A DNA stretch of 64,000 nt, taken from NCBI GenBank assembly GCA_022414725.1, contig JAJSRW010001883.1, positions 1 through 64,000 on the forward strand. Direction: 5' to 3'. The DNA is from Microglena sp. YARC (Eukaryota; Chlorophyta; Chlorophyceae; Chlamydomonadales; Chlamydomonadaceae). The notes under the pieces were generated by a model. The model searched no databases. It was not told the DNA's origin and saw nothing but the letters and a program-made list of their open reading frames with translations. Below, piece by piece: positions 1-64,000 of this stretch. The position numbers were made by a program, and so were the translations under genes. Every line of letters begins with the position of its first letter. Position 1 is the first letter of the stretch.

Positions 1-3000
1 AACCGTATGGGTAGTGGCATGATGTAGAAACAGTTCGACACCACACGGCACTGTTACCAGGGAGATGACGGGCATCATTCACACACCTGATTTGTTGCAA
101 TCCAAACCGTATGGGTAGTGGTATGATGTAGAAACGTGTTCGACACCACACGGGCACTGTTACAGGGAGATGACGGGCATCATTCACCACACCTGATTTG
201 TTTGCCCAATCCAAACCGTATGGGTAGTGGGATGAGCTAGAAACACGTGTTCGACAACCACACGCACTGTACAGAGATGACGGCATCATGTCACACACCG
301 ATTTGTTGCAGAATCCAACGTATGGGTAGGATGATGAGAACAGGTTCGACACCATACGGCACTGTACAGGGAGATGACGGCATCCATGCACACACCTGAA
401 TGTTGCCAAATCCCAAACCGTATGGGTAGTGGATGATGTAGAAACAGTGTTCGACACCACACGGCACTGTACAGGAGATGACGGCATCTCTCACACACCT
501 GATGTGCAATCCAAACCTATGGTAGTGGATGATGTAGAAACAGTGTTCGACACCACACGCACTGGAACAGGGAGATGACGGGCATCATTCACACACCTGA
601 TTTTGTTGGCAATTCCCAAAAAACGTAGGGGTAGTGGATGATGTAGAAACAGTGTTCGACACCCACACGCACTTACAGGAGATGACGCGCATCATTCCAC
701 ACACCGGATGTGCAATCCAAACCGTATGGGTAGTGATGATGTAAGAAACAGTGTTCGACACCACCACGCACTGTACAGGAGATGACGGGCATCATTCACA
801 ACTGATTGTTGCAATCCAAACCGTATGGGTAGTGGATTTTTGGGATTTGTAAACAGTGTTCGACACCACCACGGCCACTGTAACAGGAGATGACGGCATC
901 ATTCACACACCTGATTTTGCAATCCAAACCGTATGGAGTGGCATGATGTAGAACAGTGTTCACCACCACACGGCACTGTATAGGGAGATGACGGCATCAA
1001 TTCACACACCTGATTATGTTGCAATCCAAACCGCATGGAGTGGATGATGTATAAACAGTTTCGAACACCACACGGCACTGTACAGGAGATGACGGCGCAA
1101 ATCATTCACACACCTGATTGTGCAATCCCAACCGTATGGGTATGTGAGATGTAGAAACAGTGTTCACACCACACGGCACTGTACGAGGAGAGACGGGCAT
1201 CATTCACAACACCTATTGTTGCAATCCAAACCGTCATGGTTGGATGATGTAGAAACAGTGTTCGACACCACACCGGCACTGAACAGGGAAGATGACGGGC
1301 ATCATTCACACACCTGATTTGTTGCAAATCCAAAACCGTATGGGTAGTGGATTGATGTAGAAAACAGTGTTCGACACCACACGGCACTGTACAGGGAGAT
1401 GACGGCATTGCATCACCACACCTGATTTGTTGCAATCCAAAACCGTATGGTAGTGGATGATGTAGAAACAGTGTCGACACCACACGCACTGTAACAGGAG
1501 ATACGGGCATCATTCACACACCTGAGTTTGGTGCAATCCAAACCGTATGGTAGTTGGATGATGTAGAAAACAGTGTTCGACACCACACGGCACTGACAGG
1601 AGATCACGGCGCATCATTCACACACCTATTTGTTGCAATCCAAAACCCCCAAAAACCCCCTGTATGGTAGTGTGATGATGTAGAAACAGTGTTCGACACC
1701 ACACGGCACGTACAGGGAGATGACGGGCATCATTCACACACCTGATTTGTTGCAATCCAAACCGTATGGGTAGTGGATGATGTAAAACAGTGTTCGACAC
1801 CACACGGGCACTGTACAGGAATGACGGGCATCATTCACACACCTGATTTTTGCAATCCAACCGTAATGGAGGGATGATGTAGAAACAGTGTTCACACCAC
1901 ACGCACTGCACAGGGAGAGACGCATCATCACCACACCTGATTGTTGCCAATCCAAACCGTATGGGTGTGGATGAGTAGAAAAAACAGTGTTCGACACCAC
2001 ACGGCACTGTACAGGGAGATGACGGGCATCATTCACACACCTGATTTGTTGCAATCCAAACCGTAATGGGTAGTGGATGATGTAGAAACATGGTCGCACC
2101 ACACGGCACTTACAGGGAGATGACGGGCATCATCACACACCTGATTTGTTGCAATCCAAACCGTATGGGTAGTGGATGATGTAGAAACAGTGTTCGACAC
2201 CACACGGCACTGTACAGGGAGATGACGGGCATCATTCACACACCTGATTTGTTGCAATCCAAAACCGTATGGTAGTGATGTGTAAGAAACAAGGGCGACC
2301 ACACACCCGCACTTTACAGGAGATGACGCATCATTCACACACCTGATTGTTGCATCCAAACCGTATGGCTATGATGATGTAGAAACATTTTTCGACACCA
2401 CCCACGGCACTTACAGAGATGACGGCATCATTCACACCACCTGATTCTTGCATCCAAACCGATGGGTAGTGGGATGTAGAAACAGTGTTTCGACACCACA
2501 CGGCACTGTTTACAGGAGATGACGGGCATCATTCACACACCTGATTGTTGCAAATCCAAACCGTATGGTAGTGGAATGATGAGAAAACAAGGTTCGACAC
2601 CGACACGCACTACAGGGAGATGACGGGCATCATTCACACACCTGATTTGTTGCAATCCAAACCGTATGGTAGGGATGATGTAGAACAGGTTCGACACCAC
2701 ACGGCACTGTACAGGCCAGAGACGGCATCATTCACACACCTGATTTGTTGCAATCCAAACCGTATGGGTAGTGGATGATGTAATAAAACAGTGTTCGGAC
2801 ACACACGGCACTGTAACAGGAGATGACGGGCATCATTCACCACACCTGATTGTTGCAAGCCAAAACCGTATGGTAGTGATGATGTAGAAACAGTGTTCGA
2901 CACCACACGGCATCTGTTACAGAGATGACGAGCATCATTCAACACCTGATTTGTGCCAATCCAAACCGTATGGGTAGTGGATGATGTAGAAACAGTGGTC

Positions 3001-4699: not shown

Positions 4700-4878
4700 C
4701 TATTTGTTGTAATCCAAACCGTAGGTGTAGTGGATGATATAGAAGGGCTTGTTAGCTCGCTCCTCATACGAGGTGTCGTAGGGGCTAGCATAAGATGCGG
4801 AAGTAGGTGCTACCTCTTGAGCCGACTATGAAAGGCAAGCCATAGCAAACCATTACATCTCCTGCACCCAGCCCATTC
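4700..4878 (-). CDS. HPAT: Gene A exon 6 (GT95, WGWVQEMYGFAMA to YTYGLDYNK)
   Basis: Minus strand, bounded by a CACACAG acceptor and a GTGAGTG donor. With one-base corrections it reads EWGWVQEMYGFAMA, then a loop, [10 protein letters not shown] and [13 protein letters not shown], matching gene B exon 55067-55250 along its length (179 versus 184 bp). The serine codon just before the donor has lost a base, so AAATCAG became AAATAG and reads as a stop. There are two more indels in the first third. In the family this stretch holds the conserved GW-EMY and IHYTYG-DY motifs. Confidence 0.7.
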
Positions 4879-7800
4879 CTGTGTGGGTGGTTGGTCAGCT
4901 GTAGGGGTGGAGAGTGGGAGTAGACTGGGTGGGAGGTAGGAGGGTGGGTGGTTGTGATGCCGACTTATGAAAGCAGCCATAGCAAAGCCATACCATCTCC
5001 TTTGCACCCAGCCCCATTCCTTGTAGAGTTGGTGGTTGGATAGGTGGTTGGGTTGGTTCAAGCATATGGCGTGAGGTAAGTGGGGGGGGGGGGGGGGGGC
5101 CTGGGCCGACCATGAAAGCAAAGCCATAGTGAAGCCATGCACTCCTACCCTCCGCCCGCCCCCCCCCCCCCCTCCCCGCCCCCCCAGTCACAAAAACCTG
5201 TCCCGCCTTACCCTTGAACACCACTTACAGCCACATTTTACGGACACAAGCATGATTTTCTTTACACCCAATCTAGCATCACACACTGACTGCGGATACC
5301 TAGCCCATCAAGCCCCCCCACCACCACCACCCAACACACACACCATACCCCCCGTTTCAAGCACCTTGTCAGCTGGCCTCATCCTTCAATAACATTGGAC
5401 AGCCACAATATGCCACAAAGCATGCATTCTTCTCGTCATCTAGCATCATCCACAAACTGGACTGCTGATACCTATCTAACAAGCCCCCCCCCCACCACCA
5501 CCACCAACCACACACATTACCCCCTCAAGCACCTTGTCAAGCTGCCTCATCCTTCAAACATTGGCAGTACAATATGCCACAAAGGCATGATCTTCTTCTC
5601 GTCATCTAGCATCATGCCACACTGGACTGCTGATACTAGCTAACCAAAGCCCCCACCCCCCCACACAGACACATACCCCCCCAAACACAACAACAAACTC
5701 TCTCCTCACACACACACACACTACCCCCCCTTCACGCACCGTTGTAGCTTCCTTATCCCTTGAATACATTACAGGCACATTATCCACACAGCACGATCTC
5801 TTTTCGCCCCTCATCTACGTCATCCACACTGGACTGCTGATACCTAGCATCAAGCCCCCCCCCCCCCCCCCCAACACACACACCACACAACACACACACA
5901 TACCCCCAATTTCACGCACTTAGCTGCCTATCCTGAATACATTGACAGTCACATTAGCCACACAGGCATGATCTTCTTTATATCACCTACGTCATTCCAC
6001 ATGGACTGTTGCCCATAGGGTAGAACCTGCTCAAGCTCCCTTGTAGTGGTTTATACCCGTGGCCTGCAGGGTTAGTTTAGGAGTTTAGGGTTTGGGCCCA
6101 TAGGAAGACTTGCTCTTAGCTCCCCTGTAATGGTTATGCCCGTGCGCATGTGTTAGGTGTACAGTTTAGGGCTTAGTTTGCCCAGAGAAGACTTTCGCAA
6201 GCTCTCTTGTGTGGTTTATGCCTTGTGCTGCAAGGTTTAGGTGTAGGGTTGAGGCTTAGGGTTTTCCCGTAAAGAAACACTTGACTCAAGCCTCTTGTCG
6301 TGCGTTATGCCCGTGCTGCCTACAGGGTGTAGAAGGTGTTGGGCTTAGGCTTAGGGCTAGCCCGTAAGGAAGACTCTGCTCAAACATCTCTTGTAGGGTT
6401 AGCCCGTGTGCCAGCAGGGTTTAGGGTTTAGGTTTAGGGTCTAGGGCTTGGGTTTTTCCCCATAAGAAGCACTTCGCCGCAAGCTCCCCTTGTAGTGTAT
6501 GCCTGTGTTGCCTGTTAGGGTTAGGTGTACAGTTTAGGGCTCCAGGGTTTGCCATAGGATGACTTGCTCAAGCTCCCTTTGTAGTGGGTTATGCCTGTGG
6601 CCTTGCAAGGTTTAGGGTGTAGGGTTGGAAGGCTTAGTTTTCCCATTAAGTCGACTTGGCTCAAGCTCTCTTGTAGTGGTTATGCCCGTGTCGCCTACAG
6701 GGCTTTAGGGTGAGGTTTTAGGGCTAGTTTTGCGCGTAGGAAAAGACTGCTCAAGCTCTCTTTTACTGGTTAGTCCCCATGTGCCTGCAGGTTTAGGGCT
6801 TACAATTTGCCCATAAGAGAACTTGCCTCAAGCTCATCACGTATTATGGCCGTGTGCCCCTGTACTTCAACAAGATCCTCTGTACCTCAACAATCATTAC
6901 ATTCTCAACAACCCCCAAATATTCTCCTTCTGTACCCCTGACCCTACCTCCACTGTATCTCTTGACATTCAAACACAGCTGAGAAAGCCCACACTTCTAC
7001 TTCCGACCCTCTTTTTTATATACTAGCTCTGCGTACCTTGACTCGAAACACAATGGACAAACCCACACGTGACACCTATGTACCCATTACATATACTTAT
7101 CTACTTACTATCCGCAGTTATAGCTCAGCGTACCGTACTCTGACTGTCAAACACGGGAAAAACACGCATTTACTTACGACCCCCATTTATAAGCTAGATC
7201 CTGCGTACCTCTCGACTTTGAACACAATGGACAAACCCACACTACACCTATGTACCCCCTTATATAAGCTGTATAATTACTATCCCCCTTTATACACTCA
7301 TGCGTATATACCTCTGACTTCAATCAGAGTGACAAACCCGCACTTCTACTAACGACCCATTTTACTAAGCTAGCCTCCTTGTACCTTGACTTTTGAAACA
7401 CAATGGGCAAACCCACACCAAATATATGCAACCCCTTGAGGTCGTTCACACGGGACTGGTTTGGTTTTGGGTTTGGTTTGACGTTAACCTGCTGCGTCAG
7501 AGGGGGTTAGCCGAAGGTTAGCCGAGATTAGCCCAAACCCGCCCAACCCTGAATTCCGTCGAAACGGCATTCCAAGCTTCTTGTCAGTTGGGAAAGTTTG
7601 AAAATTTTGAATTGCCGATCAGCAGCAGGAGCGCTCAAATCAAGCAGGCTCTGGCGATAATGTGAGGAAGGCGGAAACTGCATCTCCTCAAACTGCGCAT
7701 CACGCTGCTGCATGCTGCTGCTGCTGCATCTCATGCTGGCGTGGATCTGCAGGTGGCGCCCATCTATCGGACCCCTCCATACAGCGCAGTGAATATCATA

Positions 7801-10800
7801 GATGGGCGAAAGGGCAGGACGGTTTCCGAGACAAGTGCGGTGAAGGAAATGCGGCAAAATGTATCGCAACAGAAACAACGAAAAAGCACGGTGTGCGACA
7901 CAACTATAAATCATAACCCAAACGTGTTCTGGTGTGAGTGGTGTTGTGGGGGGGGCACCGTTTTGGTTTGGTTTTCGTTAGCATTTGGTTAACTAAATTT
8001 GACCCCAAACCGTTCAACATTTTTCCCGTGTGAACGAAAAAAGTTTGGATGACGACAGAAACGCCCAAACACCCCTAAACCCAAACCCAAACAGTCCCGT
8101 AACGTGGAACGACTCTTATATAAGCTCATATGTCTAATTACTATTCCCCTTTTATAAGCTAGCTCTGTGTGACTTTTACTTCGAATACAGTTGACAAACC
8201 CACACTACGCCTATGTACCTCTTCTATAAGCTCATGTGTCTAATTACTATCTCCTTTTGTAAGCTCCTGCGTACCGTTCTCTTGACTTCGGAACACAGGG
8301 GAAAACCTGCGACTTTTTACTTACCAAACCCTATTTATGTACTAGCTTCCTGTGTACTCTCGACTTTGATATAGTGGGCAAACCCACACTACCACCTATG
8401 TACCTCTTCTATAAGCTCCTGTGTCTAATTAAGAATCCCTTTTTATAAGCTCGTGTGCGTACCGTACCTCTTGACTTCGAATACACTGGACAAACCCACA
8501 CTACTACTAACAACCCCCTTTTTATAAGCCCCCCTTTTTATATACTAGCTTCTGCGTATCTCTCGACTTTGTACACAATGAGCAAATCCACACTACACCT
8601 ATGTAGCCCCTTATATAAGCTATCTAATTACTATCCCCTTTTACAAGCTCATACGAACTGTACCTCTTGACGTGCGGTACGCTCTTGGGGTCTGTGGCGA
8701 CCACGTAGAAGAAGGGGAAGGCTGCTGGAACGTCCCCCTTCATGAAGTTTGGCAGGGGATGTATGATGATGTGATCCGGTTCAGACATGAAGATGTATTT
8801 TTCAGGGACCTGCACCATTGTTTTTTCGAAGGTGTGATTTAGGGGGAAGTGCAACTACCTAGAAGAAGGGGAAGGCTGCTGGAACATCCCCCTTCATGAA
8901 GTCTGGCAGCGGATGGATGATGATGTGATCCGGTTCAGACATGAAGGTGTATTTTTCAGGGACCTGCACCACAAGTAGATGTACTTTTCAGACATGATAG
9001 GTGTATTTTTTCAGGGACCCTTCACCATTTAATGTAGTTTGGCAGCGGGTGGATGATGATGTGATCCGATTCAGACATGAAGGTGTATTTTTCAGGGACC
9101 TGCACCACAAGTAGATGTACTTTTCAGACATTAAGGTGTATTTTTGTCAGGGACCTTCACCATTTAATGTAGTTGGGCAGCGGATGGATGATGATGTGAT
9201 CCAATTCAGACACGGAGATGTATTTTTCAGGGACCTGCACCACAAGAAGCTGTACTTTTCAGACATGAGGGTGTAATTTTCAGCGACCATCACCACTTCA
9301 TGTAGTTGGGCAGCGGGTGGATGATGATGTGATCCGATGTTTTTTGTTTGTTTCAGGCATGAAGATGTATTTCTCAGACATGATAGTGTATTTGTCAGGG
9401 ACCTTCACCACTTCATGAAATTAGGCAGCGGGTGGATGATGATGTGGTTTGGTTCAGACATGAAATGTATTCTTCAGGGACCTGCACCACACGAAGATGT
9501 ACTTTTCAGACATGAAGGTGTATTTTTCTGCGACCTGCACTAAGGTTTGCTTGAAGGGGTGATTTAAGGGAAAGTGCAACTATCATGAAATTAAATTAAA
9601 TTACATCTCTGGGTGCAAAAATTAAAATTCAATTTAATTCAAATTACATTTCGGGATGTAAAACTTTAAAAATCGATTCAAACTAAATTAAACTTCATGA
9701 TGAAAAAAATTAAAATTCCTAAGAAAAAACCTGACCTGCACGCACTTGTGTGGGTGTGGTTTGGTTTAATTTGGTTTGGTTTAATTTGGTTTGGGTTCAC
9801 TTGGATTGATTTGGTTTGGTTGGTTTGTGGTTGGGTTGGATTTACTTGGACTGGTATCACCCTCTCCCTACAAAACCTGACCTGCACGATCTTGATCCAC
9901 TCTACGAAGGCGAAAGGTCGATTCAGCACTACGTAGGACCGATGGGGCAACTAACACTCTCCGACAGGGGGTCCACCACGATGGTGGGAATCTCAATCCA
10001 TCAGTTGGTCTGTGCCACCCGAGTGAGCAACCGGAATGAAGCCCCCCCATGTTCACAGTTGGGTCCCAGTTGCTGTCTGCACTGAGCCCGCATCTTCTTG
10101 TAGTGGTAGTAGTGAGTGCGCATGGACCACTCCACACCTCTGCCCTGGAATGAGGTGATGGTGTGGAAGGGCTTGGGCGTGGGCTCTCTTTCAAATTTGA
10201 GGGCGACGATGTTTTCGGCAGATCGGACTGACTCTTCCCAGGCTAGGTGGACATAATTCCTTGCTGCAAGGTCTGGAGTGGAGGAGGTGATGGAGGGGTT
10301 TGGTGGTGTTTTGGTTTGGGTGGATGGTTGGTGTGGAGGTAGGTGGGAAGTGGGGGGTTTGCAGAATTAGGGGGTGGGAGTGGGGGGATTAGGCATTAGG
10401 GGGGGGGAGTGGGGGAGGCGTGGGGAGGTAGGGGGGGTGGGGAGTGAGTCGTGGAGGTGAGTGGAGAGTTAGGTGGGAAGTTGGGGGTGGGGGAGCTAAG
10501 AATTGTGTGGTGCACATATTTCTTGCTGCAAGGTCTGGAGGGTGAAGTGGAGAGAGTGATGGAGAAGTTGATGGTGGAGTTGGATGGGGAGTGGGGGGGG
10601 TGGGAAGTTCCGGGAGTGGGGTGAAGAATGGAAAGTTGGTCAATGCATGAGTGATGTGGAGGTGATGAGGTGACAGGACAACAGGTTAATCTGGGGGGTC
10701 CCACCCCCCAGGACAGCAGGACAGGGGGGCTCCGCCAAATTGAACCTGCGTGACTAATGCATGGAATTCTGAAGACATGTGTATACTTGAGGAGCATGGT

Positions 10801-13800
10801 GGGCCATGATCACAACCACCATCACCATCATCACCATCATCACCACCACCATCATCACCCACCACCATCACCACCCACCATAAACCACCACCATAATCAC
10901 CACCACCACCACCACCATCACCACCCACCATCATCACCACCACCATCACCACCACCATCCACCACCACCACCACCATCAACCAACCACCACCACCACCCC
11001 ACCATCACCACACCCATCCCACCCACCACACATCACACCACCACCCATCCACCATCATCACACATCACACCATCAAACACCACCACACCACATAAAACAC
11101 CACATCACCACCACCACTCACCACCACCACCACCACCACCACCACCACCATCACCACCACCATCATCACCACCACCCACCATTCATGCACCACCACTTTT
11201 TTTCCAAAAACCATCACCCAATCACCATCATCACCACCACCATCATCACCACCACCCACCATCACCACCACCACCACCACCATCATCCACCACCACCATC
11301 ATCACCACCACCATCACCACCAACCACCATCACATCACCCAATCATCACCACCACCATCCACCACCATCACCACCATCATCAATCACCACCACCATCATC
11401 ACCACCATCCACCATCCACCACCACATCACCACCACCAGTTCATCACCACCACCATCACCACCACCACCACCACCATCAATCCACCACCACCACCATCAT
11501 CCACCACCACCACCACCATCATCATCCACACCATCATCACCACCAATCACCATCCATCACCACCATCACCACCACCATCACACCACCACCATCACCATCA
11601 TCACCCACCACCACCACCATACCACCACCATCACCACCACCATCATCACCACCACCACCACCATCACCACCCACCATCAATCACCACCCACCATCACCAC
11701 CCCACCACCATCATCACCACCATCATCACCACCACCAACCATCACCACATCATCATCACACCACCACACCACCACCATCACCACCACCATCATCACCACA
11801 CCACATCACCACCACCTCATCATCCCACACATCACCACCACCACCAATCATCACCACCATCCATCATCACCACCATCACACCACATCGACCATCACACAC
11901 CACCATCATCACCACCACCACCACCACCATCCATCATCACACCCACCATCCCACCCCATCACCATCACCACCATCATCCACCACCACAATCACCATCACC
12001 ACCACCACCATCATCACCACCACCGATCATCACCACCACCACCACGCATCATCACCACAGTCCACCACCACCATCACACCACATCACCATCACCACCACC
12101 ACCACCACCATCACCACCCATCACCGCACCCACCACCACATCATCACCACCACCATCACCACCACCACCATCACTTACCCAACACCACCACCATCATCAC
12201 CATCTCACCACCATCACCACAACCATCACCACCACCATCACCACCACCATCACATCATCAACAGCCATCACCACCATCATCACCACCACCATCACCACCA
12301 TCACCACCACCATCACACCATCATCACCACCACCAGTCCCATCACCATCATCACCACCACCATCATCACCTACCACCATCAACCACTACCTCACCACCAT
12401 TCACCACCACCATCCATCACACTCACCACCACATCCATCCCACCCACCATCATCATCCATCATCACCACCACCACCACCACCACCATCATCACCACCACC
12501 ACACCATTCCACCACCACCATCACCACCACCATCCAATCATCACCATCACCACCTACCATGACCACCACCATCACCACCATCATCACCACCACCACCTCT
12601 CAACACCACCCACACCATGTCACCTCACATCACATAAATGCACCACCATCACCATCACCACGCATCACCACCACCATCATCCCCACCATCAACCACCACC
12701 ATCATCACCACCACCACCGATCATCACCACACCACCATCACTCACCACCACCACCATCAACCATTCACCACCACACACCACCAATCACCAAAAAACCCCA
12801 TCATCACCACCCCACATCACCAACCATCAGACCATCACCAGACCACCTCACCACCATCCATCATGCACCCACCACCATCATCACCACCATCATCCCATCA
12901 CCACCATCATCATCACCATCATCACCACCACCATCACATATCATCACCCACCACCATCACCACCATCACCACACCATTAATCCACCATCATTCACCACCA
13001 CCATCACCACCATCACACCACCATCACCAATCACCACCACCCATCACCACCACCATCACCACCATCACCATCACCACCATCACACACACCATCATCACCA
13101 CCAGTCCATCCCCATCACCACCACCATCACACCACCACCACCGATCACCATCACCACCATCACCACCACGCACCCACCATCCACCACCCACCAAACACAC
13201 CACCATCATCACCCACCACCATCAATCACCACCATCACCACCATCACACATCACCACCACCACCATCACCACCACATCACCAACCATCAATCACCACCAC
13301 CATCACACCACCCACACCCACCATCATCACCACCACCACCCATCACCACCATCCACCACCACCACCATCACCAACCTCACCACCACCACCACCATCACCA
13401 CCACCATCTCACCATACCACCACCACCAGTCACCACCATCATCACATTCCACCACCACCATCACCCCACCACCACCATCCCACCACCACCATCATCCACC
13501 ACCACATCACCACCACCACACCATCACCTCACCACCACCACCATCACCACCACATCATCACCATCCATTACCACCACCACCACCACCACCATCACCATCA
13601 TCCACCATCATTCACCACATCCACCACCATTACACCACCACCACCATCATCACCATCAATCACCAACACACCACCATCACCACCACACCACCACCCACCA
13701 CACACCACACACCAACCACCAATTCCACACCACCACCACCACCATCACCATCATCACCCACCACCATCATCACCACCATCACCACACCCACCACCAGCCA

Positions 13801-16800: not shown

Positions 16801-19800
16801 CAGACCCACACACTAACAACTCACCACCCACACAGACCCACACACAAACAACTCACTCACCCACACAGTCTCACAAACACAGACCCACACACAAACAACT
16901 CACCCACCCACACAGACCCACACAAAAACAACTCACTCACCCACACGGTCTCACAAACACAGACCCACACACAAACCCACATGTAAACAGCTCCCTCAGG
17001 TCAATGGCCAATCCCAAAAGGGTCAATGGCAAAACAACCCACCAACCTACCCACCCGGACCCACCAACAACCACCACCAAACCCAACCAACGGTCAAACG
17101 ACCCAGCCACCCAGACCCACCAAAAACCACCACCAATCCCAACCAACGGACAAACAACCCACACACACAGACCCACACACAAACAACTCACCCACCCACA
17201 CAGGCCCACACACAAACAACTTTGCCACCCACACAGACCCACACACAAACAACTTTGCCACCCACACAGACCCACACACAAACAACTAACTACCCACACA
17301 GACCCACCCACACAGACCCACACACAAACAACTCACCACCCACACAGACCCACACACAAACAACTCACCACCCACACAGACCCACACACACAGACCCACA
17401 CACAAACATCTCACCCACACACACAGACCCACACACAAACAACTTTGCAACCCACACAGACCCACACACAAACAACTCACCACCCACACAGACCCACACA
17501 CAAACAACTCACCCACCCACACAGACCCACACACAAACAACTCAGCACCCACACAGACCCACACACAAACAACTCACCACCCACACAGACCCACACACAA
17601 ACAACTCACCCACCCACACAGTCCCACACACAAACAACTCACCCACCCACACAGACCCACTCACAAACAACTTACCCACCCACACAGACCCACACACAAA
17701 CAACTCACCACCCACACAGACCCACTCACAAACAACTTACCCACCCACACAGACCCACACACAAACAACTCACCCACCCACACAGACCCACACACAAACA
17801 ACTCACCACCCACACAGACCCACACACACAGACCCACACACAAACAACTCACCCACCCACACAGACCCACACACTAACAACTCACCACCCACACAGACCC
17901 ACACACTAACAACTCACTCACCCACACGGTCTCACAAACACAGACCCACACACAAGCAACTCACCCACCCACACAGACCCACACAAAAACAACTCACTCA
18001 CCCACACGGTCTCACAAACACAGACCCACACACAAACCCACATGTAAACAGCTCCCTCAGGTCAATGGCCAATCCCAAAGGGGTCAATGGCAAAACAACC
18101 CACCAACCCACCCACCCGGACCCACCAACAACCACCACCAAACCCAACCAACGGTCAAACGACCCACCCACCTAGACCCACCAAAAACCACCACCTAACC
18201 CAACCAACGGTCAAACGACCCACACACACAGACCCACACACACAGACCCACATGTAAGCAACTCACCCCCCCACACAGACCCACCCAAACAGACCCACAC
18301 ACACAGACCCACCCACACAGACCCGCCCACCCAGACCCAACTACAAACAACTCACCCACCCACACAGACCCACCTTCAAACAACTCACCCACCCACACAG
18401 ACCCAATCACACAGACCCTCACACACAGGCCCACACACACAGACCCACACACACAGACCCACACACACAGACCCACACACACAGGCCCACACACACAAAC
18501 CCACACACACAGACCCACACACACAGGCCCACACACACAAACCCACCCACACAGACCCACACACACAGACCCAACTACAAACAACTCACCCACCCACACA
18601 GACCCACCTTCAAACAACCCACCCACCCACACAGACCCTCACACACAGGCCCACACACACAGAACCACACACACAGACCCACACACACAGGCCCACACAT
18701 ACAAACCCACACACACAGACCCACACACACAGACCCACACACACAGACCCACACACACAGACCCTCACACACAGACCCACACACACAGACCCACACACAC
18801 AGACCCACACACACAGACCCACATTTAAACAACTCACCCACCCACACAGACACACACACAGACCCACTCACACAGACCCACATGTAAACAACTCACCCAC
18901 CCACACAGACCCACACACACAGACCAACACACTCAGACCCACGCACACAGACCCACACACATAGACTCACACACACAGACCCACATGTAAACAACTCACC
19001 CACCCACAGAGACCCACACACTCAGACACACCTGTAAACGTCTAAACGACTCCCTCAGGTCCATGGTGTCCTTAGTGTCAACTGTCCAACCGATCTGGTC
19101 AATGGCCAAACCCTAAACCCTAAACGGGTTAATGGCCAAACGACCCACACACACAGACCCACCTGCAAACGATTCCCTCAGGTCCATGGTGTCCATAGTG
19201 CCAACTGTCCAACCGATCTGGGGCCCACTGCCCAGCGGGCTTGCCACTTGCAGATGTGCCAGATGCTTTAGCCAGCACTGCTGGTAAGTATCTTTGCACA
19301 ACTCCTTGTCGCCGCACCACACCCAGACATTGCAGTCCAGGGCGTCGTCGTTCGCGGGCTTGTATGCCTGGCATGCGTCGCAGCACTCTCCTGCGGTCTG
19401 TTTCTTGTGTTCCCAACCGTACTTGACTGCTACACCGGAGAAGTCCAAGTTGGGGTAAGCCCAGCAGGTGTTGATTTTGTACGCATTGGTCTTCAGCTCC
19501 TTTTTGCGCGCAGCAGGGGGAGGGGCAAGGGCGGCAATGTGTTCTACAGCTTTCGAGGGGGTGTCCTCTGGAAGTCCGCCCCCCACGCCCTGCTTGCCAG
19601 ACCCGGATTCCAGATCCGCATGCAAGTTCGAGTTCGTCTCAACTAAAATTTCCTTTATCTGGCTCACATTCCTGACTGCGCCGAAGTATCCCTCCCCGCC
19701 ATCGAAATCCTTGGTATGCGTGATGCTCGCTTCTTGCAATTCCCACGTAGAGTACACGACCAGCAAGATGACTGCGATGATAATCCCGTACGACAATTTA

Positions 19801-46917: not shown

Positions 46918-47053
46918 TTAGAACACCTTTGATGCATCCTCTGTAGCCAACCAATGTCTTGGTTTCTCACCGCAGTCCTTTACAAGCTTCCTACCACCAG
47001 AATTCTTGTAGTCGTCCCAACATGGGTACGCCTCGGTTGCCTCGTTGAAGGCC
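46918..47053 (-). CDS. HPAT: Gene B last exon (AFNEATEAYPCWDDYK to stop)
   Basis: 136 bp, minus strand. After an ATGACCAG acceptor, one base completes LIQ, then AFNEATEAYPCWDDYKNSGG, RKLVKDCGEKPRHWLATEDA, SKVF and TAA. The NEAT segment aligns with the VNEATANIPNW end of plant HPATs. The 25-residue tail after it is an extension I do not know from plants. This is the only unit in the long array that continues past DDYK into NSGGRK. Confidence 0.8.
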
Positions 47054-48482
47054 CTGGTCATGAGAAGAGGGTGCGTGTGTGGGTGGGTGTAAGTGAGGGT
47101 GATGGTGTGGGTGTTAGAGTGGGTGTGGATATCTTTGGTTGTAAGTGTGGGTGAGTGAGGGTGAGGGTGTAATTGAGGGTGTTGAGGGTGGGTTGAGTGA
47201 GGGTGAGGTAGAGACATCTAGTAGCCATTCCCAGCATGGGTACGCCTCAGTTGCCTTGTTGAAATGCCCTGGTTATTGAGAGGAGGGTGCGCGTGTGGGT
47301 GTGTGTGTGAGAGTGTGTGTGTGGGGGTGGTGAGGGTGTTGTGGGGGGTAAAATGAGTGAGGGTGCGAATGAGGGTGTTGGATGTGACATCTGGTAATCC
47401 TCCCAGCATGGTACGCCCTGTTGCCTTGTTGAAGGCCCTGGTCTGAGAGGAGTGTGTGTGTGTGTGTGTGTGTGTGTGAGTGTGTGTGAGTGTGTGTGTG
47501 TGTGGGGGGGGGGAGTGTGTGTGTGTGTCGGTAAATGAATGAGGGTGTGAAGAGGGGTGTGGATGTGACATGTGTAGTCATCCCAACATGGGTACGCCTT
47601 TCATTTGCCTCGTTTGAAGGCCCTGGTCATGAGAGGAGGGTGTGGGGTGGGTGGGGCGGGGTTGTGTGTGGCGGTGTGGGGTGGGGGTAAATGGGTGAGG
47701 CGTTGAAATGAGGGGTGGATGTGACATCTTGTAGTCATCCCAACATGGTGTATGCCTCATTTGCCTCGTTGAAGGCCCTGGTCATGAGAGGAGGGTGCGT
47801 TGTGGGGGGTGGGGTGAGAGCTGTGTATTGTTGTGGGGGGTGAGGGATGTGTGCCGGGTGTAAATGAGTGAGGGTGCCGAAATGGAGGGTGTGCATGTGA
47901 CATATTGTAGTCATCCCCTACATGGTACGCTTCAGTTGCCTCGTTGAAGGGCCCTGGTCATGAGACGAGGGTGCGACTGTGGGTGGTGTAAGTGAGGGTG
48001 GTGTGGTTGTAGAGTGGTGTGGGTGTAAGTGTGGGGTGAGTGAGGGGTGAGGGTGTAATTGAGGGTGTGAGGGTGTGTGTGAGTGAGGGTGAGTAGAGAC
48101 ATCTAGTAGCCATCTCCAGCATGGGTACGCCTCAGTTGCCTTGTTGAATGCCCTGTTATGAGAGGCAGGGTGCGCGTGGGTGTGTGGGGTGTGTGTGTGA
48201 TAGTTGTGTGGGGTGTGTGGGGGGGTCAATGAAGTGAGGGTGCGAATGAGGGTTGTGATGTGACATCTGGTATCCTCCCAACATGGGTACGCCTCTGTTG
48301 CCCTTGTTGAAGGCCTGTCTTGAGTGGAGTGTGGTGTGTGTGTGTGAGTCTGTGTGTGTGTTGTGTGTGTGTGTGTGTGTTGGGGGGGGGGGGGGGGGGG
48401 GGTGGGGGGGGAGGGGGGGGGGAGGGGGGGGGGGGGGTGCGGGGGGGGGGGGGGGGGGGGGGGGGGGGGCGGTGGGGGGGGT

Positions 48483-48516
<34 letters not shown>

Positions 48517-51500
48517 GGGGGGGGGTGGGGGGGGGGGGGGGGGGGGGAGTGTGTGTTGGGGGGGGGTGTTGTTTGGGGGGGGTAAATGAGTGAGGGTGTG
48601 AATGAGGGTGTGGATGTGACATGTGTAGTCATCCCAACATGGGTACGTTCATTTTGCCCTCGTTGAAGGCCCTGGTCATGTGAGGAGGTGTGGGGGTGGG
48701 GTGTGGGTGGGGTGGGGCGGGGTGTGTGTGTGGGGTGGGGGTGGGGGGTAAATGGGAGGGTGTGAATGAGGGTGTGGATGTGACATCGTGTAGTCATGCC
48801 CAACATGGGTACGCCTCATTTGCCTCGTTGAAGGCCTGGTCATGAGAGGAGGGTGCGTGTGGGGGGTGGGGGTGAGTGTGTGTGTGTGGTGGGGCGTGAG
48901 GGTGTGTGCGGGGGTAATCATGAGTGAGGTGTGCGAATGAGGGTGGGATGTGACATATTGTAGTCATCCCAACATTGGTACGCCTCAGTTGCCTCGTTGA
49001 AGGCCCTGGTCATGAGAAGAGGGTGCGACTGTGGGTGGGTGTAAGTGAGGGTGAGGGTGTGGGTGTTAGAGTGGGTGTGGGTGTAAGTGTGGGTGAGTGA
49101 GGGTGAGGGTGTAATTGAGGGTGTGAGGGTGGGTGTGAGTGAGGGTGAGGTAGAGACATCTAGTAGCCATCCCAGCATGGGTACGCCTCAGTTGCCTTTG
49201 TTGAATGCCCTGTTATGATGAGAGGGTTGCGCGTGTGGGTGTGTGTGTGAGAGTGTGGTGTGGGGGTGTGTGAGGGGGTGCCTGGGGGGGTAAATGAGTG
49301 ATGGGTGCGAACCTGAGGGCTGTGGAATGTGACATCTGGTAATCCTCCCAGCATGGGTACGCCTCTGTTGCCTGTTGAAGGCCCTGGTCTTGAGAGGAAG
49401 TGTGTGTGTTTTGTGTGAGGTGTGTGAGTGTGTGTGTGGGGGGGGGGGGGGGGAGTGGTGTGTGTGTGGGTAATGAGTGAGGGTGTGAATGAGGGTGTGG
49501 ATGAGACATCTTGTAGTCATCCCAACATGGGTACGCCTCATTTGCCTCGTTGAAGGCCCTGGTCATATGAGAAGGAGGGTGTGGGGGTGGGGGTGTGGGG
49601 GTGTGGGGCGGCGGTGTGTGTGGGGGTGTGGGGGTGGGGGTAAAATGGGTGAGGGTGTTGAATGAGGGTGTGGATGTGACATCTTGTAGTCATCCCAACA
49701 TGGGTACGCCTCATTTGCCTCGTTGAAGGCCCTGGTCATGAGAGGAGGGTGCGTGTGGGGGGGTGGGGGTGAGAGTGTGTGTGTGTGGGGGGGTGAGGGT
49801 GTGTGCCGGGGTAAATGAGTGAGGGTGCGAATGAGGGTGTGGATGTGACATATTGTAGTCATCCCTACATGGGTACGCTTCAGTTGCCTCGTTGAAGGCC
49901 CTGGTCATGAGAAGAGGGTGCGTGTGTGGGTGTAAGTGAGGGTGAGGGTGTGGGTGTTAGAGTGGGTGTGGGTGTAAGTGTGGGTGAGTGAGGGTGAGGG
50001 TGTAATTGAGGGTGTGAGGGTGGGTGTGAGTGAGGGTGAGGTAGAGACATCTAGTAGCCATCCCAGCATGGGTACGCCTCAGTTGCCTTGTTGAATGGAG
50101 TCATAGGCCATTCAAGTACCTTTATGGCCCTGGTTATGAGAGGAGGGTGCGCGTGTGGGTGGTTGTGTGAGAGTGTGTGTGTGGGGGGTGTGAGGGTGTG
50201 TGTGTGGGGTAAATGAGTGAGGGTGTGAATGAGGGTGTGGATGTGACATCGTGTAGTCATCCCAACATGGGTATGCCTCATTTGCCTCGTTGAAGGCCCT
50301 GGTCATGAGAGGAGGGTGTGTGTGGGGGGTGTGGGGGTGGGGTGGGGCGGGGTGTGTGGGGGGGGGTAAATGAGTGAGGGTGCGAATGAGGGTGTGGATG
50401 TGACATCGTGTAGTCATCTCAACATGGGTATGCCTCATTTGCCTCGTTGAAGGCCCTGGTCATGAGAGGAGTGTGTGTGTGTGGGGGTGTGGGGGTGGGG
50501 TGGGGCGGGGTGTGTGTGTGGGGGTAAATGAGTGAGGGTGTGAATGAGGTGTGGATGTGACATCTTGTAGTCATCCCAAATGGGTACGCCTCATTTGCCT
50601 CGTTGAAGGCCCTGGTCATGAGAGGAGGGTGCGTGTGGGGGGTGGGGGGTGAGAGTGTGTGAGTGTGTGGGGGGTGAGGGTGGTGTGCCGGGGTAAATGA
50701 GTGAGGGTGCGAATGAGGGTGTGGATGTGACATCTTGTAGTCATCCCAACATGGGTACGCCTCAGTTGCCTCGTTGAAGGCCCTGGTCATGAGAGGAGGG
50801 TGCGTGTGGGGGGGGTGGGGGTGAGAGTGTGTGTGTGTGGGGGTGAGGGTGTGTGCGGGGGTAAATGAGTGAGGGTGTGAATGAGGGTGTGGATGTGACA
50901 TATTGTAGTCATCCCAACATGGGTACGTCGCTGTTGCCTTGTTGAAGGCCCTGGTATTAAGAGGAGTGTGTGTGTATGGGGGTGTGCGCTTCTGTGTGTG
51001 GGGGGGTGAGGGTGTGTGTGTGTGGGTAAATGGGTGAGGGTGTGGATGTGACATCTTGTATTCCTCCAAACATGGGTAAGCCTCAGTAGCCTAGTTGGAG
51101 GCCCTGGTCATGATAATGATAACGCCTAGTGCGTGGTGTTAAGGGAGCCCGTCGTACGCGGGTAGGGAGCGGTCTTCTACCTCAACTGGACAAGCTACCA
51201 TTGCGGTTGATAACGACCTGCAACACCAAGAGCAACCGAAGGGGGGATCGAGCCCTGGTCATGAAAGGAGTGCGTGCATATGTGTGTGTGTGCGCGTCTG
51301 TGTGGGACTACGACTTTGGACTACAACCGGTGGCTGGCTCAGGGAGCTACCGAGAAGCTGCTGCTCATAGCCAAAAAGAAAAGACATGGCTGCCAAAAAA
51401 AACAGCTTTCCATTAGTGTTGAAATATTTTGGCTCCAACTGGTGGCTGGCTCAGGGAGCTGCCTAGAAGCTGCTGCTCATAGCCAAAAAGAAAAGACACG

Positions 51501-54405
51501 GCTGCCAAAAAAAACAGCTTTCCATTAGTGTTTAAGTCTTGGGACTACAACCGGTGGCTGGCTCAGGGAGCTGCCTAGAAGCTGCTGCTCATAGCCAAAA
51601 AGAAAAGATATGGCTGCCAAGATAATCAGCTTTCCATTAGTGTTGAAATCTTTTGGCTCCAACTGGTGGCTGGCTCAGGGAGCTGCCGAGAAGCTGCTGC
51701 TAATCGGTAGCCGACAAGTCCTAGGCAGCGTCGCAAGCGACGCGGGAAATTGGCGGAGAGTGTTGGCAACGGAATCGAGCAGACAAAAGCCAGTTAGTAA
51801 CAAGACGGTTGGCTGACGTGTCATGCTTCGTCTTGGTTGCACGTGCACGTCGGTTGCTCAAACCAACAAACGGACAACAGGTGACCCTGGGGGCTCCCCC
51901 CCCCAGAACGGGGGGCTCCGCCAAAAAGGAAACCATGTTGGCAGCCTCATGACATGGTAGCTGTACAGCAAGAGGGGGCTTTACTCTCCAAGCAGCAGAC
52001 ACCCTTTTTTAAATAAACTAAGCAAGCACCCTTATGGCTGTATGACACTTCATTATTTATTTATGTATTTGACGAGACATTTTTTTATTTATTTAATGAG
52101 ACATTCATTTATTTCATGAGCATCACTGAATGAGCTTGTGGACATTTGCATATTTATTTATTTAGTCATTTAATGAGACATTCATTTGTTTCATGAGCAT
52201 CACTGAGTGATCTTGTGTAAATTTACAGATCTTTTTTTTAATTATACATTTATTTATTTATTTTACGAGACATTCATTTATTTAATGAGCATCACTGAGT
52301 GAGTTTGTGGACATTTACATATTTATTTATTTAATTATGCATTTATTTATTTATTTGACGACATATTTATTTATTTGTTTATTTAATGAGCCATTCATCT
52401 ATTTAATGTAAGCCATTTAATGAGCCTGCGGACGATGGAGCTGTTGACAGTTGTGAAAGGCTCACTCATGTTTTGTGGGATATGAGTTCTTTGTGCTCAA
52501 ATGATACACATTTTTTGCTGATGCAGGCAGCTAAGATTCCAAATATGAGTGAGACTAACTGGATGAGCTTGTGGACATTCATGTATGTATTTATTGATTC
52601 AATGACACATTTCTTTATTTATTGACGATACATTTATGTATTTATTTAATGAGACACACTGGATGAGCTTGTGAACATTTATTTATTTATTTGTTTAATT
52701 ATTTGTTTATCTATTTGTTTAATTATGTATATATTTATTTGTTTAATTATGTATATATTTGTTTATCTATTTGTAATTATTCATTTATTTATTTATCTAT
52801 TTGACGAGACATTTATTTATTGATTTATTTAATGAGCCATTCATGTATTGAATGTACTGGATGAGCTTGCAGACGATGGGGATGCTGACAGTTGCAAAAG
52901 GCTCACTCATATTTCGTGGGGTAGGAGTTCCTTGAGTTCGAAATGATATATACCTTTTTTGCTCTGTGGCGAACATTTGCTGCTGCGGACAGTATAGATT
53001 CCAAACATGAGTGAGACTCACTGGATGAGCTTGTGTACGTACATATATTTAATTCATTATACATTTATTTATTCATTTGACGAGACATTTACTTTTTTAA
53101 TGGGCCATTCATATATTTAATGAGACTCACTGAATGAGCTTGCCGACATTTATTCATTTAATGACACCTTAATGTATTTATTTATTTAATAAGACGTTTA
53201 TTTATTTATTTAATGGGACCATAATTTATTTAATGAGACTCACTGGATGAGCTTGCAGGAATCTATTTATTTACTTATTTAATTATACATCAATCTATAT
53301 ATTTGACGAGACATTAATTAATTAATTTAATGGGACATTTCAATATTTAATAAGACTCACTGACTAAGCTTGCCGACATTTATTCATATCATGACACCTC
53401 AATGTATTTATTTATTTAATAAGACGTTTATTTATCTATTTAATAATACCATAATCTATTTAATGAGACTCACTGGATGAGCTTGCGGGAATGTATTTAT
53501 TTGCTTATTTAATTATACATCAATTTATTTATTTGACAAGACATTTATTTATAAATTTAATGAGACATTAATATGTTTAATAAGACTGACTGACTGAGCT
53601 TGCCGACGATGGAGCTGTTGACAGTTACGAAAGGCTCACGCATATTTCGTGGGGTAGGAGTCGCCTGTGCTGAAATAAATAAATTATGTACCGTGTGTTC
53701 TGTTGCGAGCAGTATATATTCCCAACATGAGTGAGACTCACTGAATGAGCTTGCGGACGATGGAGCTGTTGACAGTTACGAAAGGCTCACGCATATTTCG
53801 TGGGGTAGGAGTGGCCTGAAATTAATAAATTATGTACCGTTTGTTCTGTTGCGAGCAGTATATATTTCAAACATGAGTGAGACTCACTGAATGAGCTTGC
53901 GGACGATGGAGCTGTTGACAGTTGCAAAAGGCTCACTCATGTTACGTGGGATAGGAGTTGCTTGGGCTCGCTTGTCGAAGTGCCACTCCCCAACAGTCCT
54001 TGGTAGCATCACTCCTGCAAATGCATTATGAATAAATGAATAAATAAATAAATGAATAAATAAATAAATACATTAATGAATGAATAAACGAATAAATGAA
54101 TAAAAGAAAAAGAAACTTGACATATGCTGTGGGATAGGAGTCGCTTGAGCTCGCTTGTCAAAGTGCCACTCCCCAATAGTCCTTGGTAGCATCACTCCTG
54201 CACATGCATAAGAAAACACAAAAACTTGACAATCTTCGTGGGACAGGAGTCGCTAGAGCTTGCTAGACAAAGCGCCACTCCCCAATAGTCCTTGGCAGCA
54301 TAGCTACCCCCTATATTGTAACAGCATACCTACGTACTTAACTACAATCAGACAGACAGACAGACAGGCAGACAGGCAGGCAGACAGGCAGGCAGGCAGG
54401 CAGAC

Positions 54406-54514: not shown

Positions 54515-57500
54515 GGCAGGCAGGCAGACAGACAGACAGACAGACATTCGATGTGCATGGCATGCATGTGCATCATCAAACGCCTAGCCATGCCTCTTAT
54601 ATTGAGGTGCAGACAGTAGACTCAGTGGGTGAGGTAGTAGGGCGTACTGACTTCCCCCCCCCCCCCCCCTCACACACACACACACACACACACATGCCAC
54701 ACACACGCAAACACCAAGCTTCCCTCCAGCATCCCCACACCACCCACCCACCCACACGAACACGCACCCCCACCCACACGCACGCACACACACAGATTCC
54801 GCCTAGCATCCCCCCCTACCCCCCACCCACACCACCCACCCACACACCACAAACACACACACACAATACCTGATTTATTGTAGTCCAAACCATAGGTGTA
54901 GTGGATGAGGTAGTAGGGCGTACTGACTTCCCCCCCACACACACACACCCACACCCACACCCACACCCACTCAAACACGCACCCACACCCACACGCACGC
55001 ACAACACACCCAAGATTCGCCTAGGCATCCCCCCCCCCCCACCCACCCACCCACCCACCCACATACCTGATTTATTGTAGTCCAAACCATAGGTGTAGTG
55101 GATGAGGTAATACGGGCTCCCCTTCTTAAACTCCAAGGCTGTCTGGTAGGGTGGTTGAGCCATCAAATCGTCAACAATGACAACGTCTTTGATGCCCACA
55201 ATCCTGGCAGCCATGGCAAAGCCATACATCTCTTGCACCCAGCCCCATGCCTGCACATGCGCCAGATGGTGGTTGGTGGGTGGGTGGGTGGTGGAGAGTG
55301 GTCGTGGTTGGTGGTTGGTGGTTGGTGGGTTGGTGGGTGGTGGAGAGTGGTCGTGGTTGGTGGTTGGTGGGTTGGTGGGTGGTGGTGGGTGGTGGCCCCC
55401 TTGGCTCCGTCGTGCCCCGGGCACATTTGAACCACCAAAACTGGGTGGTTTGTGGGTGGTGGTGGTGAGTTTGCGGTTGGTTGGTGATTGGTGGTTGGTG
55501 GTGGGTGGTTGGTGGTGGGTGGTGGCCCCCTTGGCTCCGTCATACCGCGGGCACATTTGGAGTCCATTAGGGAAGCTTGACAAAGGTTATCATCATCTTC
55601 ATCATCATCAGAGCTATAGAGCTCGACATGCAGTTTCCTTCGGGGGGCCTCATTTTACAGCTACTGGCCAGCTCCATTACCCAGCCACTGGGTCAAGGCC
55701 AAAGCTTGGTGTTCTATCTGAATGCTTGTCATGACAGCATGTAGACATCGTACCGCTATTTAAGAGGAAAACAACTTAAGTGAAACAGGCAGCTGTCTTA
55801 CGACCACATACTACCTAAACTAAGGTTTCACCCCAGGACCAAGAGGGAGCTGCTTAGAAGCTTCACGTAGCCCAAACAAGTCCAAGGAGCGTCGGAAGGG
55901 ACAAAGAAAATTGGCGCCGCTTAACGGGAGAGTGGCAACGAAATCGAGTGCAGCGGACCGAAGCCAGGGTTTAAGACATAGTCAAGGTCAGGGTTGCGTG
56001 CCGACAACCTGACAACCTGACAAACAACCGGACAAAGGGGTAACTCAGGGCCCCCCCACCTTCCCTGTGTGTGTGGGGGGGGGGGGGTTGTGGGGGTGGG
56101 GGGGTTGTGTGGGGGGGAAGGGTGTGTTGTGTGTGTGTGTGTGGTGGGTGGTGGTGGTGGTGGTGGGGGGAGCAAAAAGAAACAATGCGCTCACTGTGTT
56201 GGCTGATCAGTCCCTAAAGACATCTCTACGTGCACTAAATAAATAAATAAATAGTATGCCTTGTTACGAGGCGTGAGGTTGAGGGGGCCAGCCCGTTTGC
56301 TTTCACTGGGGCCAATCACCTCTGCGTGTAATACGTGTCCCAGTACCAGCCCGTTTCAGTGATACAATTGGTCTAGTGGTACACCAAATCGCTTAAACGA
56401 CGAAGGGTTGGGGGTTCGATTCCCCCTACGGGCACCCTTAGCGTTGCAGGTCGCTGTCAACCGCGATGGTAGCTTGTCCAGTCAAGGTGGTAGACCGTTA
56501 TCTGCCCGCATACGACAGGTTCCCTTAATACCACGCCCTACCAGGCGTTCTCATTACTTTTTGTCCCACTACCAATCTCTCTCGCCAATATTTCACCAGT
56601 CTCAAATAAATAAATAAAGAAAGAAATAAAGAAAGAAATAAAGAAAGAAATAAATAAATAGATAAATAAATAGTACGCCCTGTTACGAGGCGTGAGGTTG
56701 AGGGGGCCAGCCCGTTTGCTTTCACTGGGGCCAACCACCTCTAGGTGTAAAACTTGCCCCAGTACCAATCTCTCTCGCCAATATTTCACCAGTCTCAAAA
56801 AGCCGTCAGGTTTTCGGCCCATCTTATCGCCTTAACAACTGCACTGAGAGAACACCGCTATAGACATTGACGGTTACGTTATGCCACACAGGCATTAGCT
56901 TCTTCATGCCCTCTAAGCTTACAAACACTGGGCCGCTGCCCAAGAATGGAGCTGGGTGCAAGAGATGTATGGCTTCGCCATGGCTGGCTGCCATCACACC
57001 ACCACTTCAACCCCCACCCCCCAACCACCAATCCACCGATCCACCACCCACCATCTGGCGCTTGTGCAAGCATGGAGCTGGGTGCAAGAGATGTATGGCT
57101 TCGCCATAGCAGCCTGCTATCACCCACCACCCACCACCCACCATCTGGCGCTTGTGCAAGCATGGAGCTGGGTGCAAGAGATGTATGGCTTCGCCATAGC
57201 TGCCTGCTATCACCCACCACCCACCACCCACCATCTGGCGCTTGTGCAAGCGTGGAGCTGGGTGCAAGAGATGTATGGCTTCGCCATAGCTGCCTGCTAT
57301 CACCCACCACCCACCACCCACCATCTGGCGCTTGTGCAAGCATGGAGCAGGGTGCAAGAGATGTATGGCTTCGCCATAGCTGCCTGCTATCACCCACCAC
57401 CCACCATCTGGCGCTTGTGCAAGCATGGAGCTGGGTGCAAGAGATGTATGGCTTCGCCATGGCTGCCAGCTTTCACCCCACCAGCCACCAAACTAGCAAC

Positions 57501-60500
57501 CACCAACCCATCACCTACCAACCCACCAACCCACCAACTACCAACCACCTAACCACCAAACCAGCAACCACCTACCACCAACCCACAAATCACCTACCCA
57601 CAAACCATCTACCCACAAACCACCTACCCACAAACCACCTACCAACCACCCACCAACCCATCAACCACCTACCACCTACACACCAACCACCAACCCACCA
57701 ACCACCTACACACCGACCACTTACCCACCAACCACCTACACACCAACCACCTACTCACCAACCACCTACCAACTGACCACCTACCCACCAACCACCTACC
57801 CACCAACCACCTACCCACCAACCACCTGCCCACCTACCACCGACCACAAGCTCTCACCTTGCTGGCAGCCACCAACCACCAACCATCTGCCCACCAACCA
57901 CCTACACACCAACCACCTACACACCAACCACCTACACACCAACCACCTACCCACCAACCACTACCCACAAGCGCTCACCTTGCTGGTAGCCACCAACCAC
58001 CTACACACCAACCACCTACACACCAACCACTACCCACAAGCGCTCACCTTGCTGGTAGCCACCAACCACCTACCCACCAACCACCTACACACAAACCACC
58101 TACACACAAACCACTACCCACAAGCGCTCACCTTGCTGGTAGCCACCAACCACCTACCCACCAAACACCTACCCACCAACCACAAGCACTCACCTTGCTG
58201 GTAGCCACCAACCACCTACCCACCAACCACCTACCCACCAACCACAAGCGCTCACCTTGCTGGTAGCCACCAACCACCTACCCACCAACCACCTACCCAC
58301 CAACCACAAGCACTCACCTTGCTGGTAGCCACCAACCACCTACCCACCAACCACAAGCACTCACCTTGCTGGTAGCCACCAACCACCTACCCACCAACCA
58401 CCAACCACAAGCGCTCACCTTGCTGGTAGCCACCAACCACCTACCCACCAACCACCAACCACAGGCGCTCACCTTGCTGGTAGCCACCAACCACCTACCC
58501 ACCAACCACCTACCCACCAACCACCAACCACAAGCGCTCACCTTGCTGGCAGCTTGGTCCCTATAAACATTGACTGTTACGTTATGCCACACGGGCATTA
58601 GCTTCTTCATGTCCTCTAAGCTTAGAAACACAGGGCTGCTGCCCATAGGGAAAACGGTGTTCAAGTCTTGAAGGCTGGAGAGACCTGTGTGCCTGTGGGG
58701 GTGGAGTATGAGTATGAATATGAGTATGAGTATGAGTATGAGTATGCGTATGAGTGGGTGGAGGCTGGAGAGACCAGTGTGCCTGTGGGGGTGGAGTATG
58801 AGTATGAATATGAGTATGAGTATGAGTATGAGTATGAGTATGAGTATGAGTATGCGTATGCGTATGAGTATGAGTATGAGTATGAGTATGCGTATGAGTG
58901 GGTGGAGGCTGGAGAGACCAGTGTGCCTGTGGGGGTGGAGTATGAGTATGAATATGAGTATGAGTACGAGTATGAGTATGCGTATGAGTATGAGTATGAG
59001 TATGAGTATGCGTATGAGTGGGTGGAGGCTGGAGAGACCAGTGTGCCTGTGGGGGTGGAGTATGAGTATAAGTATGCGTATGAGTATGAGTATGAGTATG
59101 AGTATGAGTATGAGTATGAGAGGGTGGAGGCTGTAGAGACCAGTGTGCCTGTGGGGGTGGAGTATGAGTATGAATATGAGTATGAGTATGAGTATGAGTA
59201 TGAGTATGAGTATGAGTATGAGTATGCGTATGCGTATGAGTATGAGTATGAGTATGAGTATGAGTGGGTGGAGGCTGGAGAGACCTGTGTGCCTGTGGGG
59301 GTGGAGTATGAGTATGAGTATGAGTATGAGAGGGTGGAGGCTGGAGAGACCAGTGTGCCAGTGGGGGTGGAGTATGAGTATGAGTATGAGTATGAGTATG
59401 AGTATGAGTATGAGTATGAATATGAGTATGAGTACGAGTATGAGTGGGTGGAGGGTGGAGGGTCGGAGGTGGAGGGTGTGTGGGTGGGTGGATGGGTTCT
59501 TGGTTAGTCTGGACTCTTTCTTCATTTCCTGGGCTGCTGCCCATAGGGAAAACAGTTTTCAAGTCTTGAAGGCTGGACAGACTAGAGTGCTTGTGTGGAG
59601 GGTGGAGTATGGGCATGGGTATGAGTATGAGTAAGAGTATGAGGTGTGGTGGGTGGTGATGGTGGGTGGAGGGTGGAGGATGGAGTATGAGTATGAGTAT
59701 GAGTATGAGTATGCGTATGCGTATGAGTATGAGTATGAGTATGAGTATGCGTATGAGTATGAGTACGAGTATGAGTACGAGTACGAGTACAAGTACGAGT
59801 ATGCGTATGAATATGAGTATGAGTCCGAGTACGAGTACGAGTACGAGTATGAGTATGCGTATGCGTATGAGTACGAGCATGAGTATGCGTATGCGTATGA
59901 GTATGAGTATGAGTATGAGTATGCGTATGCGTATGAGTATGAGTATGAGTATGGGTATGAGTATGAGTATGCGTATGCGTATGCGTATGAGTATGAGTAT
60001 GCGTATGCGTATGCGTATGTGTATGTGTATGAGTATGAGTATGAGTATGGGTATGAGGATGAGTATGCGTATGCGTATGAGTATGAGTATGCGTATGTGT
60101 ATGAGTATGAGTATGAGTATGCGTATGCGTATGCGTATGAGTATGCGTATGAGTATGAGTATGAGTATGAGTATGAGTATGAGTATGAGTATGCGTATGC
60201 GTATGAGTATGAGTATGAGTATGAGTTTGAGTATGAGTATGAGTATGAGTATGAGTATGAGTACGTGTACGAGTACGAGTATGAGTATGAGTATGAGTAT
60301 GAGTATGAGTATGAGTATGAGTATGAGTATGCGTATGAGAATGAGTATGAGTATGAGTATGAGTATGAGTATGAGTATGAGTATGAGTATGAGTACGAGT
60401 ACGAGTACGAGTATGAGTATGAGTATGAGTATGAGTATGAGTATGAGTATGAGTTTGAGTATGAGTATGAGTATGAGTATGAGTATAAGTATGAGTATGA

Positions 60501-64000: not shown

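Follow-up and report, generated by a model that had tools for sequence, protein, structure and literature searches.

Genes of the window and copies of their exon edges

The window, which is the whole stretch of DNA analysed here, comprised the first 64,000 bases of the 78,453-base contig C1454 in an assembly of 568 Mb. Two genes, A and B, lay on its minus strand, and 13 exons of these genes were delimited via the reading frame, the phase and the splice sites. Both genes carried the label GT95 in the first-pass annotation. In a Pfam search, the gene B protein matched PF23452 (HPAT) with 350.6 bits (cut-off 23.9) over positions 1–307 of the 307 in the profile, and the predicted product is thus a hydroxyproline O-arabinosyltransferase (HPAT). 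A weak match to the PAN profile PF14295 (20.4 bits) stayed under the cut-off of 27. The 20 best protein matches showed 42–45% identity, and those named to species were all from green algae. In a 27-row paralogue tree of proteins, gene B grouped with Chlamydomonas eustigma and five EukProt proteins in a seven-member clade (support 100/100), and support at the fork holding gene B was 82/86. When the innermost splice sites were joined, the frame of gene B stayed open all the way from B2 to the stop codon, and B_PAN, the PAN exon, joined B2 in frame. Upstream of the window, in L009, gene B had at least three further exons, which were likewise surrounded by edge copies.

In gene A, exons A1 and A2 joined in phase and read HPAT-like as far as a frame break in A2. 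A4 and A5 also appeared, by eye, to contain breaks, and the sequence of gene A is thus noisy or decayed. No Pfam match was obtained with A1. The exons and the copies of their edges were as follows.

19163..19829, minus strand: gene A exon A1, with donor GTGGGT, a membrane anchor and a PAN-like part by eye; related stretches elsewhere in the genome
16300..19105, minus strand: donor-side copies of A1; exon copy at 19098-19044 and 10 junction-spanning copies
9882..10272, minus strand: gene A exon A2 (exon 3 of the first-pass annotation), with frame breaks
8851..9534, minus strand: eight direct acceptor-side copies of A3, upstream of it
8664..8809, minus strand: gene A exon A3 (formerly exon 4)
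6800..8620, minus strand: array with probable A3 donor copies, seen by eye only; units keep about 12 exon bases and the donor
6070..6840, minus strand: acceptor-side copies of A4, unit with telomere-like CCCTAAA tracts; two copies by search, the rest by eye
5920..6063, minus strand: gene A exon A4 (formerly exon 5), frame break by eye
5540..5839, minus strand: two donor-side copies of A4
4700..4878, minus strand: gene A exon A5 (formerly exon 6), frame break by eye
1..4690, minus strand: 29 donor-side copies of A5, unit about 102 bp (Tandem Repeats Finder); the array begins at the contig end
62869..63069, minus strand: gene B exon Ba; acceptor copy 63989-63929, donor copy 62810-62719
58542..58692, minus strand: gene B exon Bb; five acceptor-side copies at 59.3–61.6 kb, 11 donor-junction copies below 58.5 kb
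56946..57469, plus strand: six inverted copies of the acceptor edge of Bc
56858..56942, minus strand: 85-nt copy of positions 48–132 of the 151 in Bb, 1.6 kb downstream; stops short of the donor edge
55067..55250, minus strand: gene B exon Bc, with HPAT match; donor copy 54918-54870
53888..54014, minus strand: gene B exon Bd; acceptor copies 54301-54129, donor copies 53818-52419
47229..51103, minus strand: 22 acceptor-side copies of Bl, unit about 169 bp
46918..47053, minus strand: gene B last exon Bl, with the stop codon
46746..46793, minus strand: copy of the Bl stop-codon edge, downstream of the exon (48 nt at 83%, E 2e-9)

The arrays announced in the first-pass annotation for exons a to d of gene B, including the inverted one at exon c, were all recovered on both sides by the exon and junction searches, and queries spanning the junctions added two donor copies at B_PAN. 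For the last exon, the upstream array was found as described; the downstream copy carries the stop-codon edge, where no splice site exists in the gene model, and not a donor. The inverted array of Bc (57469-56946) was the sole inverted edge array found in the two genes and adjoined the long copy of Bb. A G run of 166 bases (87% matches) occupied positions 48382-48547 in the last intron of gene B.

The outcome for gene A was more mixed. The donor array of A1, the acceptor array of A3, both arrays of A4 and the donor array of A5 were found by search, and A2 had one junction-spanning copy at each edge. At the acceptor side of A5, a single copy was found at E<=1e-3, and the junction-spanning search returned no copy there. 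Neither the exon-only nor the junction-spanning search returned a copy in the supposed donor array of A3 at 6.8–8.6 kb, which is weakly supported. An additional "exon 2" had been proposed in the first intron, from a segment recurring at approximately 15.3, 14.05 and 10.76 kb (10750-15340) beside a long GTG/GAT-type simple repeat. This segment is not an exon, since A1 joins A2 in phase and the homologous stretch of gene B leaves no room for it. Telomere-like TTTAGGG/CCCTAAA tracts were seen by eye in introns at 6040-6840, 15560-15605 and 19105-19130, in one case within a repeated unit. A tRNA-Glu (TTC) was predicted by ARAGORN at 20667-20742 on the minus strand, upstream of gene A, and a gathering-threshold search of the 64,000-base window against Rfam listed nothing.

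The side rule in genes A and B

The exons served as queries against the entire contig at E<=1e-4. Every copy was assigned to the nearer exon end, here called the edge, although some copies stopped short of the last exon base. In the adjoining introns and flanks of genes A and B, all 92 edge copies detected at this threshold, which short copies escape, obeyed the same rule. The 48 copies of 5' sides were all upstream of their exon (42 direct and six inverted, the latter all from Bc), and the 44 copies of 3' sides were all downstream. The first-pass annotation had stated this rule for both genes, and an equal occurrence of either edge on the two sides was not seen. Another 22 matches, kept separate from the 92, linked gene A and gene B at a distance; 10 rows matching a paralogous exon itself were excluded from that count. 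Adjacency, direct orientation (86 of the 92 copies) and unit spacing, together with the arrays delineated by Tandem Repeats Finder, are those of tandem duplication. The exon-edge arrays of genes A and B are confirmed as real.

The same rule in other genes of the assembly

The 30 best of 64 matches to PF00118 (chaperonin) and the 30 best of 38 matches to PF00022 (actin) were sampled with 1.5 kb on each side; 15 of the 60 exon cores contained one or more in-frame stops and remained in the sample. An edge copy was present at 38 of the 60 cores, on the upstream side of 25, on the downstream side of 28 and on both sides of 15, so that 53 of the 120 sides had copies within 1.5 kb. The rule proved to extend to these genes: 167 of the 168 copies obeyed it and all 168 were direct. 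The sole rule-breaker, L064, was a match with five internal stops. Edge copies exceed chance: 38 of the 60 exons had a copy of their own, and the cores of one family matched only 1 of 600 flanks of the other. The same control, which concerns only the exon part of the units, discarded an introner or transposon, i.e., the same element at many unrelated loci. At a looser threshold, and when partners were taken from both families pooled, seven matches were obtained in three core–partner pairs, all of them actin–actin. Two chaperonin matches (C6:13962293-13963762 and C5:11283081-11284901) differed from most of the 64 in that a single open frame spanned almost the entire profile; they may be of organellar type, retrocopies or contaminants.

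Age, constraint and splice sites of the copies

Codon positions were compared in the 34 flanks holding two or more copies. The exon differed from all agreeing copies at 8/695, 8/695 and 39/691 sites for codon positions 1, 2 and 3, respectively (p ~2e-8). Differences among the copies themselves were almost evenly distributed (170/695, 150/695 and 195/691, p=0.045). The third-position excess in the first comparison and the near-evenness in the second indicate that the adjacent exon evolved under coding constraint and that the copies mostly did not. The copies are old, non-coding fossils and not noise. Strong coding constraint on them was rejected on the same figures, with a weak unevenness remaining.

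Intact splice dinucleotides were carried by 105 of 120 donor copies, which came from 26 junctions, and by 94 of 106 acceptor copies, which came from 30; these are upper estimates, since only junction-spanning alignments were counted and the junctions of the 60 loci were predicted, with a donor matrix built from the window's own sites. In donor copies, the two bases of the GT matched at 0.94 and 0.91, and positions -8 to -1 and +3 to +9 at 0.67–0.93. In acceptor copies, the AG matched at 0.92 and 0.94, inside the range of its neighbours (0.76–0.95). A purging of decoy splice sites is thus not what is observed, as GT and AG were retained. The earlier proposal that recurrent tandem duplication lengthens these introns and leaves fossil splice sites is supported, and the check suggested with it, on other genes of the assembly, succeeded. 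The copies appear to be unused by splicing.

Breakpoints and simulated intron growth

According to the first-pass annotation, the duplications started at the exon–intron junctions. This part of the proposal did not hold. A copy was present at 71 of 146 exon sides, and the exon part of the nearest one ranged from 19 to 182 nt (median 65), parts shorter than about 19 nt escaping the search. The step from the exon to the nearest copy was 73–920 nt (median 166), 18 of the 71 steps were divisible by three, and the exon share of the step ranged from 0.05 to 1.0. A fixed breakpoint at the junction was rejected on this scatter of exon parts.

In the introns, 5509 of 38,138 bases (14%) were detectably exon-derived, and 13,355 (35%) lay under units that included a junction or the 150 intron bases next to it. 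We simulated introns grown to 3 kb by uniformly placed duplications, exon-internal ones being rejected, without decay or deletion. The exon-derived share reached 42, 30 and 19% for starting introns of 150, 250 and 400 nt, respectively, and 9 and 4% for those of 800 and 1500 nt. Compared with these shares, the edge copies are not above what a uniform process starting from short introns gives. For starting introns of 150–400 nt, the simulation placed junction copies at 82–94% of the junctions; the 53 of 120 sides observed at the sampled loci are below this range, a point against the model proposed below, in a simulation without decay.

Local copies in introns and elsewhere

Along the contig, local copies were found in 8/13 and 10/13 windows at the two exon edges, 30/44 at junctions and 6/49 in exon interiors. 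They were approximately three times as frequent in introns (455/632) as outside the modelled genes (194/934), an outside class that includes the unmodelled 5' end of gene B; 565 low-complexity windows were removed from the introns and 257 from the outside. Local copies were scarce upstream of B_PAN (5/132 windows at 68–72 kb) and frequent at 28–30 kb between genes A and B (48/56). In the flanks of the 60 loci, 1749 of 4531 windows had local copies. Duplication therefore does not look uniform: it may favour gene bodies, which leaves room for a mechanism linked to them. The intergenic figure could be diluted by transposon insertions, of which a reverse-transcriptase fragment (PF00078, E 1.7e-15, at 25435-26007 on the plus strand, between the two genes) is present.

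A model for the origin of the arrays

We propose that many introns of this green alga were probably lengthened by local tandem duplication across exon borders, filtered by selection, with the innermost splice sites kept in use. Segments of about 70–300 bp would be duplicated frequently in genes, presumably through slippage or template switching in repeat-rich introns, and would then re-expand into arrays. A duplication within an exon or over a whole exon would alter the mRNA and be lost, and one internal to an intron would be retained. A duplication straddling a border would also be retained, since the copy adjoining the unbroken exon would still work. At the acceptor, the last copy would be the one joined to the exon, and fossils carrying the acceptor side would accumulate upstream; at the donor, the first copy would be joined, and fossils carrying the donor side would accumulate downstream. 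Splicing would pick the innermost acceptor–donor pair by exon definition, so that fossil splice sites would be tolerated while the intron grows. The side rule, for which the first-pass annotation knew of no described process, is real; a special process would not be needed, because the geometry of border-straddling duplications combined with preservation of the exon yields the rule, as a matter of argument. The full-length HPAT match of gene B under inner-site splicing favours this model. The L064 exception and the six inverted copies of Bc count against it.

The preference for introns over sequence outside the modelled genes could instead reflect a mechanism linked to junctions or to transcription, such as R-loops at GT/CA-rich intron ends or splicing-coupled breaks, that starts duplications near the borders. 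The greater frequency of tandem repeats near intron–exon junctions in two green algae (PMC3887541) points the same way. Such a mechanism appears unlikely, as the breakpoints are scattered within the exons, intron interiors carry local copies as often as junction windows, and the stop-codon edge was copied as well. A reading in which gene-body-specific duplication tied to transcription or splicing built many introns from exon borders, the fossil sites acting as stepping or competing sites under a strong dependence on exon definition, seems a rather distant prospect. The copies might also be functional and under selection, as alternative exons, decoys or stepping sites for the splicing of long introns. 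The proportion of intact dinucleotides and a GT match somewhat above that of its neighbours would fit; the AG match is within its neighbours' range, the junction-spanning requirement itself favours intact sites, and the copies differ from each other almost evenly over codon positions, which makes function very improbable.

Finally, the frame breaks of gene A, the many single-base indels between copies and the position of the largest array at the contig end are features that a false tandem expansion from noisy long reads, or another assembly or sequencing artefact, would produce, and array copy numbers may be wrong. Noise would not concentrate the substitutions between exon and copies at third codon positions, and edge copies recur in two unrelated families at loci situated on contigs C1 to C5; an artefact as the source of the arrays can hardly be believed.

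Relation to known modes of intron growth

Transposons or introner elements lengthen introns by adding DNA. In the introns reported here, by comparison, a large part of the added sequence has a local source, the exon border next to it. Rogers-type intron gain, also by tandem duplication, would create an intron that relatives lack; the present copies lie within existing introns. In the potato RdRp gene, a tandem duplication across an intron–exon boundary was described as intron gain (PMC4974935). As in that case, a duplication crossing the boundary brings splicing signals along; in the potato account, one duplication gave one new intron, spliced by means of the copied signals, whereas here arrays lengthen introns already present and their copies appear to be unused. 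In Chlamydomonas and Volvox, tandem repeats are densest in introns and more frequent near intron ends and junctions, according to the portion of the study consulted (PMC3887541). Microglena is likewise a green alga with intron repeats toward the ends; that portion deals with repeat motifs and does not mention exon edges or splice sites in the units, which the present units contain. Among the matches listed in a search of open-licence literature (titles and abstract openings, with subscription journals outside its range), none described arrays of exon edges that follow a side rule.

The comparison suggests that the exon-edge arrays are a product of selection-filtered tandem duplication, known in kind, at an unusual density. 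The surprises are this density, the retention of decoy splice sites and the predicted inner-site splicing. The arrays suggest a transposon-free route of intron growth, in which the copies record older states of the exon edge. They also offer a natural test of splice-site choice among many near-identical sites, a matter relevant to the question of exon or intron definition, and they could mislead gene finders and RNA-seq aligners.
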